Under the pieces are notes generated by a model. The model did not search any database and was not told the origin of the DNA. It saw nothing but the letters and a program-made list of their open reading frames with translations. Both the position numbers and the translations under genes were made by a program. This document shows positions 40,368-49,274 of a stretch of DNA of 64,000 nucleotides, in pieces; the first letter of the stretch is position 1; each line of letters begins with the position of its first letter. Source of the DNA: Nitzschia sp. DOCU1 (lineage: Eukaryota > Bacillariophyta > Bacillariophyceae > Bacillariales > Bacillariaceae); the NCBI GenBank assembly GCA_951394045.1, contig OX595986.1, positions 4,493,534 through 4,557,533 of the forward strand, in the 5' to 3' direction.

Positions 40368-40689
40368 GATTTTAGCGGTTCCAAACCCCGTGTAAACGTC
40401 TCATTTTCGTACCAAGCCAGACGGTACAAAAATGACCCATCCGAACCACGAAACGACCGACGATTTCGTGGCGAATTTAGTCAAGCACATGCCGTCACAG
40501 ACGATACAACACGAGGGACAAAAACAACACCGTGACAATCAACCAATTGCTATGAGCAATGACGCCGTTGTCACAGCAATCCACCAGCATGACACAACGA
40601 TTGAGAGAAACACAGTACTAACGTCGACGACTACCGGTACGATGCTACCGTGGTGGAGCGCCCCTTGACGGAGGATGTACCTGTTGTGC

Positions 40690-41185
40690 GGTATTCGCTT
40701 TGCACATCAAGAAATTCAACACATATCCATGACGACCTTGTGCGATACCGGTGATGTCTTGTCGATTCCAGCCATGCAAATATTCAAGAAAAAGACATGA
40801 ATGAACGCATGCACACTACGCCCTACTGTACTTTCATGCTGAAAAGATTGCCGAAATGGCATGGGATTTGGTATGGGATGTGATGCTGTGTGCAAGAGTT
40901 ATGATATTGATTCGATTGAAGAAGCCTTTGTGCCAGCAGGAACGGGATGGCACAAACCGGAAGATCTGATGTGACGAGAGGCTTTGTTGGATGAAGTGGA
41001 GAAGAAAGGATTGTTTGGTATGGAAGTAGTCGAGGTCAGTTCTCCCTATGATCATGTCGATATTACATCGCTCAAGGCCTTGTGGATTGCTTATTGTCGA
41101 TGCCTTGCCAGGTGCCATGGTAGTTCATGGAACTATGGGCACGCACAAGATCATTATCGACAAGGCGGTTGTTCCATTCTAAGTA
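40690..41185 (+). pseudogene. Arginase/agmatinase (ureohydrolase) gene fragment inside transposon copy 1
   Basis: Translation in shifted frames gives ureohydrolase pieces. One is GIRFAHQEIQ...LCDTGDV near 40690-40800. The other, after a gap where the metal-binding GGDHS/DAHxD region should be, is SYDIDSIEEAFVPAGTGW, then a TGA inside the usual T-R-E segment (LM-stop-REAL, near 40971), then GMEVVEVSSPYDHVDITSLKAL up to about 41090 and a possible tail to 41185. Arginase-family enzymes carry a SxDxDxxxPxxxPGTG motif of this kind. The internal deletion, stop and frame changes show it is not functional. Confidence 0.78.
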
Positions 41186-41441
41186 GTACTACAGAGGGAA
41201 ACTAATCAAGTAATACATGAGTTGAAATTCATTCGCAAGTAGACCCTTTGTTACAATACTAATAGTGGTTTTGTTGAAATTGAAGCGACAAAGATCGTGG
41301 CGCTTTCTTCGCTATTACTATCACACATCGTTATAGTGCCTCTGGTGGCATCCATACTCCATTGAGTTTTGGCAGCCGACCGACGGTGGCGCACAACGTG
41401 CCGCATTGTTCGAATGTCACCATTTCTTTCTCAAAAATGAA

Positions 41442-41516
41442 TATCTCCGTTATCTTTTTTGCATAAGCCTCTATCAAAAGTATTCAAAGCTCTGTGCCAA
41501 AAAGATAACTGAGATA
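41442..41516. repeat. Long hairpin (23-bp arms) near the right end of transposon copy 1
   Basis: Arms 41442-41464 and 41494-41516 pair over 23 positions with two mismatches plus a wobble, around a 29-nt loop. The homologous hairpin in copy 2 is at 47892-47966. Arm sequences differ between copies but pairing is kept. Confidence 0.88.
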
Positions 41517-41777
41517 CAATGTTTGGATGAAGTAATGATCTATAGAATGGTGTCCATGGTCGGACCGAGATTTCGTTTCCGTGATAGCATCGAGCGAAAA
41601 CATCATCGCGCCCAAAAAATGATTCCAAGTTTGACTAATTTGATTGCAATTATTCATGATTCAAAAGTTAATCCCGGACGCGAGACGTTTACGCGCACTT
41701 TGGAACCGCTAGATTTGAATCTTACTTTTCGGACGATCAATATAATTTGTCTCTTGCATCCACGACGAGTTGTTACC

Positions 41778-43301
41778 ATGAGCAATACAAATAGTGGACT
41801 CCAAACGCCGCCTCAGTCACCGCCGACTTCCGGTCGTCCCGTGGTGGATACCGGTCACATTCGCCGTGCCAGTCTTCAATTGTCTCCCTCCTGGGACAAG
41901 CAAACGCAGTCTTGTCGTCATCTCGGAGACTTGGACGACGAGGACGTCATTAAGATTGCATTCTTTCCACTGGACCAGTTGCCCAAGACTCCAGAACTAA
42001 GAAAGCAAATTGTGGATGTGGAATCATCGGCCGATGATTGGTCGACTGCCTCGATTACGGATTCGATTTACAGCTACAACACCGCGGATGGAATCTGGTC
42101 CGATGTCCCCATGGGACCTCCAGATGCCATTTTGGGCATTGCACAAGCCTTTCGTCAATGCGAAGATCCTCGCAAAGTCAATGTTTGTGTAGGCGCCTAT
42201 CGCGATGACAATGGAATGCCGTACGTCTTGCCATCGGTGCGGGCTGCCGAAAAGATTCTGTGGGAAAACATGGAGTCCAAAGAATATCTTCCCATTGAAG
42301 GCGACAAGGACTTTCTTCTGTGTGCCATGAAGTTCGCCTATGGCAAGGACATGGACATTGAAAATCACGTAGCAGCAGTGCAAACGTTGAGCGGCACGGG
42401 CGCTTGTGCAGTCGGCGGTCGCTTTTTGGCAGAATTTTGGCCGGGACGTCCCATTTATGTGCCAGATCCTACGTGGGGAAATCATATTGCTATTTTCAAG
42501 ACATGCGGTTTAGACTGCCGCAAATATCGATATTATGATCGCAAGAATAGCAAGCTGGATTTGGAGGGCATGTTGGAAGATTTGTCCAGAGCCCGCGACG
42601 GCTCTATCATTCTGATGCATGCCTGCGCCCACAATCCCACTGGGTGTGACCCCACCATGGAAGAATGGAAGGAAATTATCAGTGTCATTAGCAACAAGAG
42701 TCATATCGCCTTTTTTGATGCGGCGTACCTGGGATTTGCGTCGGGAGATGCGGAACAAGACGCACAAGCCTTTCGCTATGCTGTCAGTCAACACGTTCCG
42801 ATACTCCTTGCACAATCCTTTGCCAAGAATTTTGGATTGTATGGAGAGCGAGTGGGGTCCTTGTCTGTGGTATGTGGGAATGCGGCACAGAGGGAACGAA
42901 TTCTGAGCGAACTGCGTTGTATTATTCGACCCATGTATTCGTCTCCACCGCGGCATGGCAGCTCCATTGTCAAGACCGTCTTGAGCAATCCAGCATTGCA
43001 ACTACAATATTATGAAGAGTGTGCGGGTATGGCGGTTCGGATTCAAAAGATGCGCGTCAAGCTGGTCAAGGCGTTGGCGACGGCAGGAAGCACCCATGAT
43101 TGGTCCCATATCAGTACCCAGATTGGAATGTTTGCCTTTACCGGACTGGATGAAGACATGTGCAAGAGATTGACGGCAGAGTTCTCCATCTTTTTGACCA
43201 CCAACGGACGCATTAGTATGGCTGGGCTCAACGATTCGAACCTTGAATATGTCGCATCAGCCATGCATGCCGTATCGGAAGGGAAAAGCATTGGAGCATG
43301 A
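41778..43301 (+). CDS. Aspartate aminotransferase (class I) with N-terminal extension
   Basis: PLP enzyme converting aspartate and 2-oxoglutarate to oxaloacetate and glutamate. From the ATG at 41778 it has 507 residues. The catalytic body starts near residue 105 (SDVPMGPPDAILGIAQAF) and has KVNVCVGAYRDDNG, YLPIEGDKDF, TLSGTGACAVGG, DPTWGNH, CAHNPTGCDP, FFDAAYLGFASG, the PLP-lysine motif QSFAKNFGLYGERVG (Lys350) and the C-terminal GMFAFTGL and RISMAGLN. The extra ~100 N-terminal residues are Pro/Ser-rich, then acidic, with no clear plastid or mitochondrial signal. The frame is open upstream into the transposon, but the TSD and TIR there argue that this is 5' flank. It converges on the Sec23-like gene (103 bp). 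Confidence 0.9.
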   Translation: MSNTNSGLQTPPQSPPTSGRPVVDTGHIRRASLQLSPSWDKQTQSCRHLGDLDDEDVIKIAFFPLDQLPKTPELRKQIVDVESSADDWSTASITDSIYSYNTADGIWSDVPMGPPDAILGIAQAFRQCEDPRKVNVCVGAYRDDNGMPYVLPSVRAAEKILWENMESKEYLPIEGDKDFLLCAMKFAYGKDMDIENHVAAVQTLSGTGACAVGGRFLAEFWPGRPIYVPDPTWGNHIAIFKTCGLDCRKYRYYDRKNSKLDLEGMLEDLSRARDGSIILMHACAHNPTGCDPTMEEWKEIISVISNKSHIAFFDAAYLGFASGDAEQDAQAFRYAVSQHVPILLAQSFAKNFGLYGERVGSLSVVCGNAAQRERILSELRCIIRPMYSSPPRHGSSIVKTVLSNPALQLQYYEECAGMAVRIQKMRVKLVKALATAGSTHDWSHISTQIGMFAFTGLDEDMCKRLTAEFSIFLTTNGRISMAGLNDSNLEYVASAMHAVSEGKSIGA

Positions 43302-43404
43302 TCTTTCACCTAATACATTCCACAACTAGTCTAGAACAAAGGCATACAATACATCATACCCTGGTACCCTATTATTAGAATATATACTCCTCTTTGATCT
43401 GCAA

Positions 43405-46400
43405 CTACTCGCAAAGAGACACGCCGTCGTCTCGACTCGCATGAGTGGCACTGGACACACTCCAGAACCATTTGCGGAAACTTGCATCCGACGCTGCATC
43501 GTAAAATCTGAATCGGGAACGCAAACTTTCCAGAGCGGCCGGCGACAAAGTGGAAAGCTGGGGGAAATTGGCCAGCTGCTGATCGGGAGAATCGGCATGG
43601 GAGGGTGCGAGACGAGTGGTGAATCGACGGCTCATAGAGTCGCCATCAAATAACATGTGAATTTCGGGCATTGGGAAACGATCCTTGGCCTTGTCTTTGA
43701 GATACTTTTTGAACTTCTCGCGGACAGAATCAAACGGATTCGACTCGGTACACGCTTTGCCAGACCAAACAAATTGGACATCGTGCTGGTCGCAGGCAAT
43801 AATGGACTATCGAAGGAAAATGATAGAAAATGGAATGCAAGGCGTGAGACCTTTTTGCTCGATCCAAACACCTGCAAAGTCGTATTGCAGCATTAACTAC
43901 TTACCGCATCCCAAAGTGCCATAGTTTCAGCTGGAAATGGATGCATCGCTCCCATACTCGACGCACTTCGGACCTTCTCGAGATTGCCTGTACTCCAGAG
44001 TTTGGGTGCCATCATACCGACACAATCCTCCAATGGAAAGCGTAGAAAGAGATGCCGCATTTCGGCGCGGTCGTCCATTGATCGCATGGGGCCAGGGCTG
44101 ATAAGAGCACCCCGACGCAAGTGATATAAACGCTTCAAGCCTTCCGAAAGTTGTGGCGGAAACGCAAAGTCCAACGAGGACGGAGACGAAGAGTCTTTCT
44201 TCTCTTCTCGTCCACTCTCCAAATCCAATTTTCTGGTGTTTTCTTCGAGCCCCAACAACCGAAACGCACCGGAAATACGCTGAACCGTACAATCCAAGTC
44301 GAGCTGACTATCATAGGCCAGCTGCAACCACAAAAAATTCGTGGAGAAGATAAAACAAGCGCAAAGACAAACGTCAGAAGAAGAAAAATAACGCTGAGTC
44401 GGGCGAGTCCCCTACCGGCAACAGCTCGTCTTCCTCTGAGCGCCAAACTCGCTTCAACGTACCTGCTCCAACGTTTCGGTATCCCCTGCCACAATCTTGT
44501 CCTTGATGTCCTCTGTTTCTTCTCTTCCGTGCAGCGATCGGTACACTGCTCCCTTGGCCAGGAGCACGGAGACGACATCGTTGTCGACGTTCTTGACGTA
44601 ATCGCTGACAGACTCGGCAACCTCAAAACGATGAGTGCATACACGAGTAATCAGGCTCTTGCCATCTCTGGAAATATACCGAACAGTTGTTTGGAAAAAG
44701 GCATACTCATCATCTTCTGGAATCATGCTTTCGTTGACTTGGAACATGACGGACATGGTTGCCAAGGGGTCAAAGCGGGCTAATCGTATTCTCGTCAAGG
44801 ACAAATCCAGAGCTTCGACAGAGGGGAGTTTGTTGGTCGCTATATCCTTGCTGGCAGCCAATTTGGATCCTTCGGCAAAAGCAGCACGTTCGTTGCGCAT
44901 CAAACGCGACGATCCATCCTTGAACGATGATGAATCGACGAGTTCTCCAGGTCCCACCAAATGGGTCGCCGCGATAAAACTATCGGTTCGAATATCAACA
45001 ATACATCCGATCGGACTCTTCCCTTGGCTATCATCATCCTTAGGGCCAGCTTTGCGACTAAAGAATCGTGCCAAACCCGTCTTGGGCTGCTCCACTTCGA
45101 CCCCCTTGCCAACAGGAATTTCACTAGTGGTGCGAGACACGTACGTATATTTCAAGCAATAGGTCAAATTGTGCACCAAATGCGGCGAATCAAAAGTGGA
45201 ATGTGGCAAGACGTATCCTCCACTGGGGTCCACCAAGGCTTGATATGCCGGTAGACCCAGTTCCATGGCCCCTGCACAAAAGACGTCAACGGCGATTCCA
45301 GCTTCTATGCCCAAGTTAGCCAATGCCTCGTAATATTCAATCGCCTTTGACATTTGACTCTTATCGACCACATCGTGTTTCGACTTTTTGTTCTTTGGAG
45401 TCTTTTTCGGCAGCGGGCTGGGCAATTCCGCGCCTTCTTCTTCGGCCACAACACTGCCCTCCCCAATGTTGGGGCATCCGTTAGTAAACAACAATAGCCG
45501 CGACGTTCGGCTTTCTTGAACACTAGCCAAGTCCATGGCACACTTCAAGGCTTCGCCGGTACAGCGGCGTTGTGACTTGGTAGCTTTGACGGCCGTGCGC
45601 TTCTGAATCCAAGGCGATTCCTTTGGTAGCTCCACAACAACAGGCTTTCCCTGTTGCTGAAGTTGCTCCTGACGCTGGCGTGCTTCCTTTTTCTGACGCA
45701 AGATTTCCATTCGCGAGACAGAAGATTTGGATGATGCATCTACTGAAACTCCAAAGACAGCCGACAAGCATTGCGACAAGGACTCCAAATCCGCCTTGGA
45801 AGTAATAGTCTGGAAATAAGCTCGCGATTCCATAGCTTTTTCCCTGGCCTCGTCGTCATCGTCAGCAGTATAAATATCAGCACTGGCTACTCCAGCAATG
45901 CCTAATTGATACAGGGCCACGGTCTGATCAAAGACCACTAGCCCTAGTTGAATCTTGGGGTGGGGAGCCTCGTCATCACTCGTTCCTTTGGAGTCCAAAA
46001 GACCAGGCAACACTTGCTCCACTGCCTTGACAATGCCCTTGGCATCAGCAGGGTCTAGATTGGCATCTACCACTAAAATCACACTGCAGACATCTTCTTC
46101 GTTGGGCGGCAGTGGCAGTGGCTGATGGTACTCCACCATGTTGGACGCCAAGGCCGGTGTGAGCAAACCGCCCGCCCCTAGCAAACGCTTGGGCAAAACG
46201 TTTTCCGCCCCACACAACGAACACGTCCAAATGCCAGTACTGTACTTGACTTCCACATGTGGGTTCAAATACGTCAAGCATGTCAAGCACAAGACTGGCG
46301 GCAACGACGACGTGGGGCATTCAATGACTGGGATCGTATTGGATTTGGCCGACGCCGCTGCCTCTGCGGCAGCACCGGCCTCTCCGTCGCTCTTTCGCTT

Positions 46401-46601
46401 GGGAATCTCGGCCAGAGGCGTCCACACAAATCCAAAGGGCAGCTCACAGGAATTCTCAAGCCCAGGCCCCGGGGGGCATTTTCGGGAGGTGAACGTGGGG
46501 CCCTCATCGGTGCGCTCCCGACGAGCCATGGTGGCGGAAGGCTTGGGGGGAGGTGGGGGAGGTTCCGGCGCCGGCGTGGAGTAGCCAAACAACCAGGACA
46601 T
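43405..46601 (-). CDS. Sec23-like COPII coat protein, three exons
   Basis: COPII inner-coat subunit and Sar1 GTPase activator by family. Exons 46601-44463, 44321-43905 and 43806-43405 (introns 141 and 98 bp, both phase 0) give 985 residues. The zinc finger is C105xxC108...C127xxC130 (LNPHVEVKY...WTCSLCG). The trunk follows (VILVVDANLDPADAKGIVKAVEQVL, LGLVVFDQTVALYQLG, TGEALKCAMDLA, LLLFTNGCPNIGEG), then the beta-sandwich, helical part (RMRNER-like, LRLARFDPLA) and a gelsolin-like C-terminal domain (VQFVWSG...PMPEIHMLFDGDSMSRR). It is longer than usual Sec23 (about 770) through charged insertions near 300-400. I chose the ATG at 46601 (MSWLFGYS) because the longer frame starts with TTG. Confidence 0.85.
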
Positions 46602-47730
46602 GGTGGAAACGTTCGTCTCAGGGGTCTTATTGAAGTGATGCAACTATGCTGGCCCGTTGGGATGTACAGAGGAGAGTCCTAACAAGTGAATGGCATTGTC
46701 GGTCTTTGTGGTCATTGCACACAAAGCTGTTGGTGGTAGCAATCGGTGCAGATTTCTCTGTTGGAGGGTGGCTGGGCGGGTGCGCGGCAGGACGACCGAC
46801 GCGCTCCTGTGGTCGCATGAATGAATCTAGTAGCGGTTCCAATCCCCGTGTAAACGTCTCATTTTCGTACCAAGCCAGACGGTACAAAAATGACCCATCC
46901 GAACCACGAAACGAACGACGATATCGTGGCGAATTTAGTCAAGACATGATGGGTCACCGACAACACAACACGAGGGACATAATAAACAACACCAACGAGG
47001 CAATCAACCGCTTCCATTATAATTACTTTTCGACACGGAAGTCCACATTCCCTCGAACTCGGTGCATGGAAGATAGAAGAGTGAACTTCTCCCGGGAAGG
47101 CGCTTTCGGAACCTCTTCAAATCGAGGTCCTTCGTGAGTTTAAGAGAGCAATCACTATGGACGCGTGCGGATACAAGGCTTGGCATGCATGGGTCCTGCT
47201 AAATTTTAGACTTGCTCTACAGATGGACGAGTGCGAAGACAACCCATCAGTCTTGGGACAAAAAGATGGAGCGCTTCCCGTTTGATGATGAAGTTCTCGC
47301 ACCACACCCTGCAAAATATCAAGCTTGGAGGATCGCAACGTCGTCACAACCTCTGCTTCTTCGTCTACCAAAATATTGCGGATCGTGGTTGGACCGTCAC
47401 TGGCTTCTAGCAGTAATGACGGAGGGCGGAGCAGCCAAGACGCCGGCTTGTTCCTGCTAATGCTGCTTCTGTCAGTCGGCGTTTGATTGGCGGCATGGAG
47501 AAAAAGCGAGCATGAGGAGTCCATGGCGTCCAATGCTGCTGCCAATCCAAGCGTGCCAATTGATTCAGATGGTGGTCGCTGCAGCGTCTTGAACGAGTCC
47601 ATCACCGAGGGACATGACCAAGACGCCGACGACGATACTGCCGGGGGCGGTCACGTCTTGTTACCCGAAAGCGTCAATCATCTTCGATCTGTTCCGGTTC
47701 GTCGTCCGAACGAAACGGCCATATGTAATT

Positions 47731-47798
47731 AATTCGTCTAGTACTAATAGATTAGAGATGTGTAATTCGTCTATAGTACTAATAGATTAGAGATGTGT
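47731..47798. repeat. Two-copy ~34-bp tandem repeat
   Basis: AATTCGTCTAGTACTAATAG... at 47731-47763 and again, with a 2-bp insertion, at 47764-47798. It directly abuts the point where similarity to the other transposon copy resumes (47799). Confidence 0.9.
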
Positions 47799-47891
47799 CA
47801 TCCATACTCCATTGAATTTTGGCAGCCGACCGACGGCGGTGCACAATGCGCCGCATTGTTCGAATGTCACCATTTCTTTCTCAAAAATGAA

Positions 47892-47966
47892 TATCTCAGA
47901 ACTCTTTTTTGCATAAGCCTCTATCAATAGTATTCAAAGCTCGGTGCGAAAAAGAGTTCTGAGATA
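47892..47966. repeat. Long hairpin (23-bp arms) near the right end of transposon copy 2
   Basis: Arms 47892-47914 and 47944-47966 pair over all 23 positions with two G-T wobbles. It is homologous to 41442-41516; three base pairs are changed on both sides and one mismatch of copy 1 is repaired. Confidence 0.9.
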
Positions 47967-48341
47967 CAATGCTTGGATGAAGTAATGATCTATAGAATGG
48001 TGTCCATGGTCGGACCGAGATTTCGTTTCCGTGATAGCATCGAGCGAAAACATCATCGCGCCCAAAAAATGATTCCAAGTTTGACTAATTTGATTGCAAT
48101 TATTCATGATTAAAAAGTTAATCCCGGACGCGAGACGTTTACGCGCACTTTGGAACCGCTAGAATCGTACGTTTGTCGTCCGTGTGTGACGATGCGTGGG
48201 TGCCACGTGGAAGATAGACAACTTCGTCGCGAGAAAAGTCCATCTCATTTTGATCATCATCGATCATCCTCTCTCCTGCACTTGGTGAAGCATTCCAACT
48301 AGGTAGTTGCTCCCGGCTTGTTCTAAACGACATGATATTCA

Positions 48342-49274
48342 ATGGCTAATAATAATAATCAAGGCGTAACGTCCAAGGCGCCGCCATTACTGGAAGAGCA
48401 GGATGTGGTAGTCATAGAAGAGGACTGGTCGCAGATCATGACGTCGGATCCTTCGGCATTTGCGGAACATGAAACGCAACGCTTTGAATTACCGGGTGGA
48501 ACGACTATCCAGATCGCATCGACGGCATCCTTATCGCCATTGGATATGATGGATTTGAGTAATGGGACGCACGATGCTACGGGACACAGGATTTGGATGG
48601 GTGCGAAACTCTGGATCCATGCATTACCAGCACTGCGCACCTACTTTGACGCAGGGAGAAATACGTGTCGATGCCTCGAGCTGGGAAGTGGAACGGGCCT
48701 TGCTGGTATCGCCACTTTTCAATTTTATCGACAAACAATACCCATTGAGCTTGTTTTGACGGATAGTTCCGAGTCTGCTCTCGAACTCTGTCGCCTCAAC
48801 TGCCGACAAAATGGAATGGACGAGGAGTGTAGTAAGATCAACGTGCAACCTTTGAAATGGGGATCGGCGTTGCCCTTCTTTACTTCAAATAAGTTCGATA
48901 TTGTCATGGCTACTGATGTTATATATGACATTGACGCCTGGTTACCGTTGCTTGAAACAGTCATGGCCGTTCTGGAATGCAGAGGATACTTGCTAGTGTC
49001 GCACGTGCCTCGAGCTGCGTTGCCACACCAGGAGGAGGAAAGAATTCAAGATGCTACGCCGACTTATCAGTCCCATCATAGAACCTTGGAGGCGTACTTG
49101 ATCGAGAAGGCTACCGACATGGGCTTGACTTGGAAGACGACGTTCCTTCCCAAGGATCTAGATTCATTTCTGGGACAAAAGGACATGCAGAATGCGGGAG
49201 CCGCTATTCTCGTCTTCCAGCGTGGCCCAGGAGATGAAGAGAATGTTCCTTTTGCGATTAGGGACACAGTTTGA
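48342..49274 (+). CDS. METTL21/KMT-type protein methyltransferase (Methyltransf_16 family)
   Basis: A 310-residue SAM-dependent methyltransferase, likely modifying a lysine of a protein. Before the catalytic core stands the usual GAKLWIHALPAL (the family's 'G..vWps...L' lead). Motif I is LELGSGTGLAG, motif post-I VLTDSSESALELC with NCRQNG, and the DxxY-type motif FDIVMATDVIYD, followed by a YLLVSHVPR strand. The D-V-I-Y motif is the lysine-methyltransferase signature in this group. The substrate cannot be read from sequence. ATG at 48342. It lies 176 bp after the second TIR transposon and converges on DGAT2. Confidence 0.82.
   Translation: MANNNNQGVTSKAPPLLEEQDVVVIEEDWSQIMTSDPSAFAEHETQRFELPGGTTIQIASTASLSPLDMMDLSNGTHDATGHRIWMGAKLWIHALPALRTYFDAGRNTCRCLELGSGTGLAGIATFQFYRQTIPIELVLTDSSESALELCRLNCRQNGMDEECSKINVQPLKWGSALPFFTSNKFDIVMATDVIYDIDAWLPLLETVMAVLECRGYLLVSHVPRAALPHQEEERIQDATPTYQSHHRTLEAYLIEKATDMGLTWKTTFLPKDLDSFLGQKDMQNAGAAILVFQRGPGDEENVPFAIRDTV

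Follow-up and report, generated by a model that had tools for sequence, protein, structure and literature searches.

The window analysed here is a stretch of 64,000 nucleotides from the diatom Nitzschia sp. DOCU1 (contig OX595986.1, positions 4,493,534 to 4,557,533), and it contains two short elements, w1 (40373-41711) and w2 (46831-48161). Both very probably belong to a single hAT-like family of DNA transposons, as non-autonomous members of the Pack type. A gene-capturing (Pack-type) family had been proposed in a first-pass annotation of the window, and this is borne out: the elements have common ends with differing host-gene interiors, dispersed copies (20 insertions) carry 5-bp target duplications of the GANTC type, and a longer copy, e11, has an intact frame.

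Two elements with common ends and their genomic family

Both elements, with terminal inverted repeats (TIRs) of about 30 bp, were located by inverted-repeat search at the positions given in the first-pass annotation. The measured lengths agree with the 8-bp difference reported there. The features are listed below in coordinates of the window.

40368..40372, no strand: target duplication GATTT to the left of w1, equal to 41712-41716
40373..41711, plus strand: element w1 (group A), 1339 bp
40373..40402, plus strand: left TIR of w1
40373..40544, plus strand: left end of w1 common to copies of other interior groups (w1 1-172 against w2, 89%)
40540..41336, plus strand: interior A of w1, which two further repeat groups also contain between the same limits
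40876..41097, plus strand: fragment of an agmatinase gene of the arginase family, interrupted by a single stop (C2:4534409-4534630, 36.3 bits, cut-off 22)
41345..41711, plus strand: shared right end of w1, with the leader and first codons of a transposase-like gene (minus strand, ATG 41423-41421)
41442..41516, minus strand: leader hairpin of w1
41682..41711, minus strand: right TIR of w1
41712..41716, no strand: target duplication GATTT to the right of w1
46823..46827, no strand: target duplication GAATC to the left of w2
46831..48161, plus strand: element w2 (group B), 1331 bp
46831..46860, plus strand: left TIR of w2
46831..47009, plus strand: left end of w2 common to copies of other interior groups
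47055..47278, plus strand: FAT-domain piece from the TOR kinase gene of the host, with 91 bp of the open frame missing (parent C1:1550323-1550629)
47280..47491, minus strand: piece of a second locus (parent C11:448471-448677)
47520..47722, plus strand: piece with parent C1:1548250-1548491, lacking 39 bp (DNA match)
47739..47801, plus strand: 28-bp direct repeat, two units, adjoining the right end of w2
47795..48161, plus strand: shared right end of w2, containing on the minus strand the start of the transposase-like gene (leader and first codons, ATG 47873-47871)
47892..47966, minus strand: leader hairpin of w2
48132..48161, minus strand: right TIR of w2
48162..48166, no strand: target duplication GAATC to the right of w2

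The TIR arms are complementary over 30 bp to 87% in w1 and to 83% in w2. The left ends align over 172 bp of w1 and 179 bp of w2 with 89% identity, as estimated before (about 170-180 bp). At the right, 367 bp align with 95% identity (363 bp in the first-pass annotation). No similarity was found by alignment between the shared ends, in agreement with the description of the centres as unrelated. The two predicted duplications, GATTT and GAATC, are both present; however, the left GAATC of w2 does not adjoin the TIR, since TAG (46828-46830) intervenes. The two elements have the same orientation and lie 5.1 kb apart, with two genes in between.

The host genome examined comprises 52,080,636 bases in 63 contigs (C1, C2 and so on). 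The silicon-transporter family gave 18 matches in it, with up to 604 bits, which marks the host as a diatom; one of 14 control genomes was matched, below the cut-off. The genome searches scored the best candidates only, and therefore all copy counts are lower bounds. The TIR pattern with up to three mismatches had 43 matches in the genome and none in the reversed control; a looser pattern had 52 matches and one in the control. Together with the target duplications of the paired insertions, these counts exceed what chance would produce. Further TIR pairs, which the first-pass annotation had suggested searching for, were thus found, with at least 21 paired elements and at least 20 independent insertions; e7 and e10 were counted once because their flanks are common to both. 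TAGCG starts the TIR in all 21 paired copies. Four right ends (r14, r17, r24 and r36) have no paired left end, and shorter fragments were also present. When the 300-bp flanks were compared between paired copies, only those of e7 and e10 matched. Segmental duplication as the origin of the copies is therefore ruled out, including the one larger duplication that would have explained w1 and w2. Copy e6 (C3) is 100% identical to w1 over 1339 bp, with different flanks and a different duplication (AATTC against GATTT), which indicates recent movement. The nearest copy to w2 is e1 on C1, with 98.5% identity.

The copies were sorted by interior into group A (w1, e6, e12, e16, e18 and e20), group B (w2, e1, e8, e9, e19, e21, e22 and e23) and group C (e11, e15, e13 and e5). 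Two of them carry large insertions, e9 one of 6.9 kb (C12:782466-789395), and e15, also on C12, an internal one of about 8.3 kb.

The e11 gene and its proposed place among transposase superfamilies

Copy e11 (C5:2062551-2066324, 3774 bp) has the same ends as w1 and w2, and contains an uninterrupted frame of 1,095 codons from the ATG, which is read inwards from the right end. The right end common to w1 and w2 corresponds to the leader and first codons of this transposase-like gene. The statement in the first-pass annotation that no transposase frame is present is true of w1 and w2 themselves, yet both of them keep the start of one. At C5:2054932-2066324, e11 adjoins oppositely oriented pieces of a second copy, and its left flank is the transposase-gene sequence of that copy.

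From its conserved residues, the e11 protein is probably the transposase that moves the family. Compared with its own genome, it gave at least 44 matches (42 of 70 candidates scored), many of which are pieces of the family; the relatives share 31-34% identity over 490-620 residues. One of these, the partial sequence L087, was used in a two-sequence profile, and the search with this profile gave a single protein, P0001 (727 aa, E 5e-99; 7312 candidates scored, word-limited). Common to e11, L087 and P0001 are the motifs QxDG (D371), DSGAGTPES (D440), SCxxHD (C473, H476) and LITRWWT (R551, W552). The E829-R830 pair is common to e11 and L087; P0001 does not align there. Diverged TIR matches with three mismatches at C1:5638924-5638953 and C1:5641803-5641832 adjoin two copies of a distant transposase relative (26%) at C1:5637686-5638597 and C1:5640565-5641476, and probably represent a sister family.

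The hAT elements follow the TIR rule (T/C)A(A/G)NG and have duplications of 4-8 bp (PMC6027215); the start TAGCG and the 5-bp duplication agree with both. The key residues are D180, D248, R318, W319 and E572 in Hermes (PMC6027215), and D310, D377 (D328 in another passage), CxxH and W576 in Kat1 (PMC4763223). The same residues (D, D, R-W and E, with CxxH) occur in e11, the pairing with Hermes being based on their order and spacing rather than on an alignment with a hAT sequence. The D371-D440 spacing is 69, compared with 68 in Hermes and, by the D377 passage, 67 in Kat1; the adjacent R-W corresponds to R318-W319 of Hermes. Hence the anatomy fits hAT better than the Mutator-like elements (MULEs); in the first-pass annotation, a 5-bp duplication had been said not to fit MULE, hAT, CACTA or PIF in any obvious way. 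Elements with 5-bp duplications form a Repbase group, hAT5 (PMC12730594). The family resembles hAT5 in the duplication length and, by the general hAT rule, in its TIR start; the comparison covers these described features, and hAT5 differs in being placed with animal hATs, while the passages found state no GANTC preference for it.

The e11 protein is accordingly called hAT-like, and hAT membership is unproven. It was not filed as hAT because the profile matches failed and because CxxH and W are common to MULE and hAT (PMC5225508). Its role and its hAT kinship rest on motif order, and several results tell against both. The protein had no Pfam match at E up to 1, nothing significant in the PDB (best E 1.3), and no match in the first word-limited protein search (7982 candidates scored). 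A later word-limited search (7993 candidates scored) gave no relative besides P0001, and none was present among 35 pattern matches in viral contigs. Pfam at E up to 10 gave nothing hAT-related for L087, the e11 halves or P0001, and NCBIfam gave no match for P0001 and L087. The structure model of P0001, with P0001 alone as input, had a predicted local distance difference test score (pLDDT) of 37.7, too low for a usable model. The negative Pfam, PDB, NCBIfam and protein searches, together with the motifs shared by MULE and hAT, might suggest an undescribed DDE superfamily with GANTC targets, which has only the general D-D-CxxH-W-E order of several superfamilies in common with hAT. We regard this as a serious possibility that falls short of an even chance, since the TIR start, the duplication length, the D-D spacing and the adjacent R-W all fit hAT; the Kat1 spacing depends on D377 rather than D328.

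Two other superfamilies were rejected. Mutator-like elements have target duplications of about 8-11 bp, compared with 5 bp here. For CACTA, the TIR begins with TAGCGG rather than CACTA; the length alone would not exclude this superfamily, as CACTA elements with a 5-nt duplication have been reported (PMC8903248).

Interiors and their parent loci

The 76-residue open piece of w1 matched the Pfam Arginase family with an E of 4e-4, and its best PDB matches were agmatinases (E 0.004), followed by antibody chains (0.026 and weaker). In the genome search with the Arginase family, all six group-A copies were above the cut-off of 22 (28-37 bits, one TGA each), and three further copies outside the transposon family had 26 bits and two stops each. 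Long matches free of stops were found at C7:3366478-3367296 (257 bits) and C2:3551778-3552632 (219 bits). At the DNA level, three pieces of w1 align with the C7 agmatinase gene (77, 91 and 80%). This host gene is one open frame of 361 codons without stops, and since it is open across the gaps, the gaps represent deletions and not introns. Interior A is also found in other repeats: three match w1 168-964 at 84%, and three match w1 174-964/965 at 73%. The 84% group is located at C6:1839643-1840412, C15:1274183-1274952 and C6:908618-909387, the 73% group at C11:2139253-2140055, C6:1549374-1550179 and C8:2314702-2315504. Both groups end at about the same points as interior A, left and right. Another repeat probably captured the agmatinase piece first, and group A would have taken its interior from there, so that the capture proposed in the first-pass annotation seems to be indirect in this case.

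For w2, the 66-residue open piece matched the Pfam FAT family (E 5e-4) and mTOR in the PDB (E 4.5e-4). The parents of interior B are C1:1550323-1550629 (92 and 95%), C1:1548250-1548491 (90 and 93%) and C11:448471-448677 (91%), and the C11 piece stands between the two C1 pieces in the element. The other genome matches to interior B were group-B copies or fragments, two of which adjoin e7 and e10. The first C1 parent has an open translation that matches mTOR (E 3e-8), and it is part of an open frame of 3019 codons that has FAT matches, the host TOR gene. The second C1 parent follows the TOR piece 1.8 kb further downstream, on the same strand, and is open over 281 bases; it may be a later TOR exon or another gene. 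Its frame is in a different phase from the FAT frame, and therefore a TOR origin is not claimed for both C1 pieces. The C11 parent has a sole open frame over 251 bases (83 codons), antiparallel to the TOR piece. As judged from these DNA matches, the interior of group B is assembled from at least two places, in both orientations. Copies e8 and e9 have an additional 178-bp insert; its likeness to TFIIB by eye was not supported by Pfam and PDB.

Intron-free (RNA-mediated) capture was considered, since the captured copies lack stretches of their parents. It was ruled out because the missing 91 and 39 bp lie in open C1 frames, and the C7 gene is open across its gaps.

Several points weigh against gene capture. 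The open pieces of w1 and w2 are just below the curated cut-offs of Arginase (20.3 bits, cut-off 22) and FAT (19.9 bits, cut-off 24.2), and named genes were assigned neither to the C11 piece nor to the second one from C1. The six interior-A repeats were not picked up by the genome searches with the ends or TIRs of the w1/w2 family. The interior of e2 and e7 is a piece of a related transposase, not a host gene. Moreover, e15, e13 and e5 arose from an e11-like element by deletion and carry no captured genes, so the proposed capture does not extend to them. Such derivatives would be expected of ordinary Ds-like non-autonomous elements, in which the interiors are unrelated filler and no real gene capture occurs; filler after gap repair is common. 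This explanation is nevertheless very unlikely, because both interiors correspond to named genes of the host and to host loci with 77-95% identity, and in B segments from two or more loci are joined in either orientation. It would require chance matches, which are hard to reconcile with Arginase scores over the cut-off in six copies and DNA matches of 90-95%. A Pack-type family is thus preferred. Maize Ac/Ds (PMC3260210) is similar in that a single autonomous element is accompanied by deletion derivatives and by others in which hardly more than the ends is shared; the present family differs in the target site and in interiors that include assigned host genes.

Two properties of Pack-TYPE elements are found in w1 and w2, namely TIRs and a target duplication without an own transposase, and an interior from host genes elsewhere in the genome, which for A (C7 agmatinase) is probably second-hand. 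For a third, movement by the transposase of an element with equal ends, e11 with its intact frame is the candidate. A close likeness is to the Pack-hAT elements of plants (PMC8903248), which are also non-autonomous, with TIRs, target duplications, conserved ends, and interiors from one or more host genes. Pack-hAT differs in its plant hosts and 8-bp duplication; here the host is a diatom, the duplication is 5 bp and mostly GANTC, and the transposase is unrecognised by Pfam. Outside plants, capture and amplification of a host gene are known from a fungal hAT with histone H3 (PMC6710886). It carries one gene in hundreds of copies, inactivated by repeat-induced point mutation (RIP) except for the original, whereas the diatom family has different interiors within one set of ends.

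The ends were also compared between groups, with e2 and e7 omitted from the right-end count and e10 from both left and right. The nearest right end belongs to a different interior group in eight of 18 copies, although the differences in identity are small, often one to three points. For example, e12 (group A) and e15 (group C) share 98.6% identity in the right end and 98.2% in the left end. Ends and interiors thus have partly separate histories, as expected with interior replacement or end conversion. Only a part of the left end and roughly the terminal 165 bp on the right recur in e2 and e7/e10; these copies also contain a stretch that, in e2, corresponds to the N-terminus of a related transposase, with 34% identity to e11 residues 9-226. 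Tandem right ends were observed in e2 (C2:2761600-2761735) and e16 (C16:919440-919530). The inner right end of e2 is followed by GATTC, and the same site is located 54 bp inside the normal right end. The tandem ends are consistent with one copy nested in the end of another, the middle being later lost in e2.

Target site, leader hairpin and proposed mechanism

An exact 5-bp target duplication was found in 18 of the 20 independent insertions, taking the outer of the two tandem right ends for e2 and e16 and omitting the extra TAG for w2. GANTC is present on both sides in 15 of the 20 and on at least one side in 17, against a background of 0.49% of positions in the sequence examined. In addition, A is favoured at -7 (14/20) and C at -6 (12/20). 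The ANT core is present on both sides in all 20 insertions, and the duplications of e5 and e11, which count against a 5-bp length, agree at only four of five positions and differ at the outermost base only. Both facts would be predicted by a 3-bp ANT duplication with the TIR extended by one base (CTAGCGG...CCGCTAG), which would suggest PIF/Harbinger-like or ANT-type elements, but this is highly improbable, because the non-GANTC sites of w1 (GATTT), e6 (AATTC) and e7 (GACTA) match over all five bases and would need coincident end mutations, and because the e11 duplication may be rearranged, its left flank being from the transposase gene of another copy. The same three sites argue against PIF/Harbinger, which has a 3-bp duplication TTA/TAA (PMC8903248). 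Ciliate elements were described with a GANTC junction and an ANT duplication; a 5-bp GANTC duplication was not described in the passages found.

The leader of the transposase-like gene contains a hairpin in 24 of the 27 right ends examined; e2, e7 and e10 lack that part. It has a 22-bp stem and a 31-nt loop, and in e11 it ends 18 nt before the ATG. Among 22 copies of equal length, three pair perfectly, seven have one mismatch or G-U, 11 have two and one has four, and the 5' arm exists in four main versions. In 16 distinct rows, 94.0% of the cells pair, compared with 89.4% in shuffles (0/500 as high), and 17 cells are changed on both sides, compared with 6.8 (0/500), both values being inflated by the relatedness of the copies. 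The double-change pairs (4) and further pair types (6) were not above the shuffles (141 and 349 of 500). For 14 core columns of the stem, chosen after the variation had been seen, the diversity is 0.26; it is 0.10 in the whole stem and 0.04 elsewhere. This pattern indicates either a structure under selection or the copying of one arm onto the other. The hairpin may dampen translation of the transposase.

In the proposed mechanism, the e11 protein would bind the TIRs and the subterminal ends, cut the element out, and insert it at GANTC with a 5-bp stagger. The interior might be replaced while the ends stay, if foreign DNA fills the excision gaps in faulty gap repair. Alternatively, neighbouring insertions might fuse, which is the preferred model for plant Pack-TYPE elements (PMC8903248). 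Local neighbours in the same orientation, like w1 and w2, were also described for Pack-TYPE elements in that source.

Both elements are located close to gene starts. The end of w1 is 66 bp upstream of the start of an aminotransferase gene at 41778 (gap 41711-41778). Element w2 has a gene start on either side, that of a Sec23/24-like gene on the minus strand (46601) and that of a methyltransferase-like gene (48342), the intervals being 46601-46831 and 48161-48342.

Pack-type gene shuffling has been described for plants (PMC8903248), and no report of Pack-type elements or gene capture in diatoms was found among the matches listed from openly licensed literature. A broader interpretation can be offered tentatively: a new DDE clade, diverse in the diatom, with hAT-like layout, no recognisable sequence kin, GANTC targets and a 5-bp stagger, might combine gene shuffling, in which its non-autonomous relatives swap interiors between families that differ in their ends, with expression tuned by a hairpin whose arms change together. 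The e11 protein represents a putative transposase family missed by the profile libraries tried, and the short palindromic target GANTC may suit insertion tools. Since its target is defined, its parent genes are open and a candidate for the autonomous partner exists, this diatom family allows tests of how foreign DNA enters between transposon ends, one testable question being whether the interiors are replaced during gap repair.

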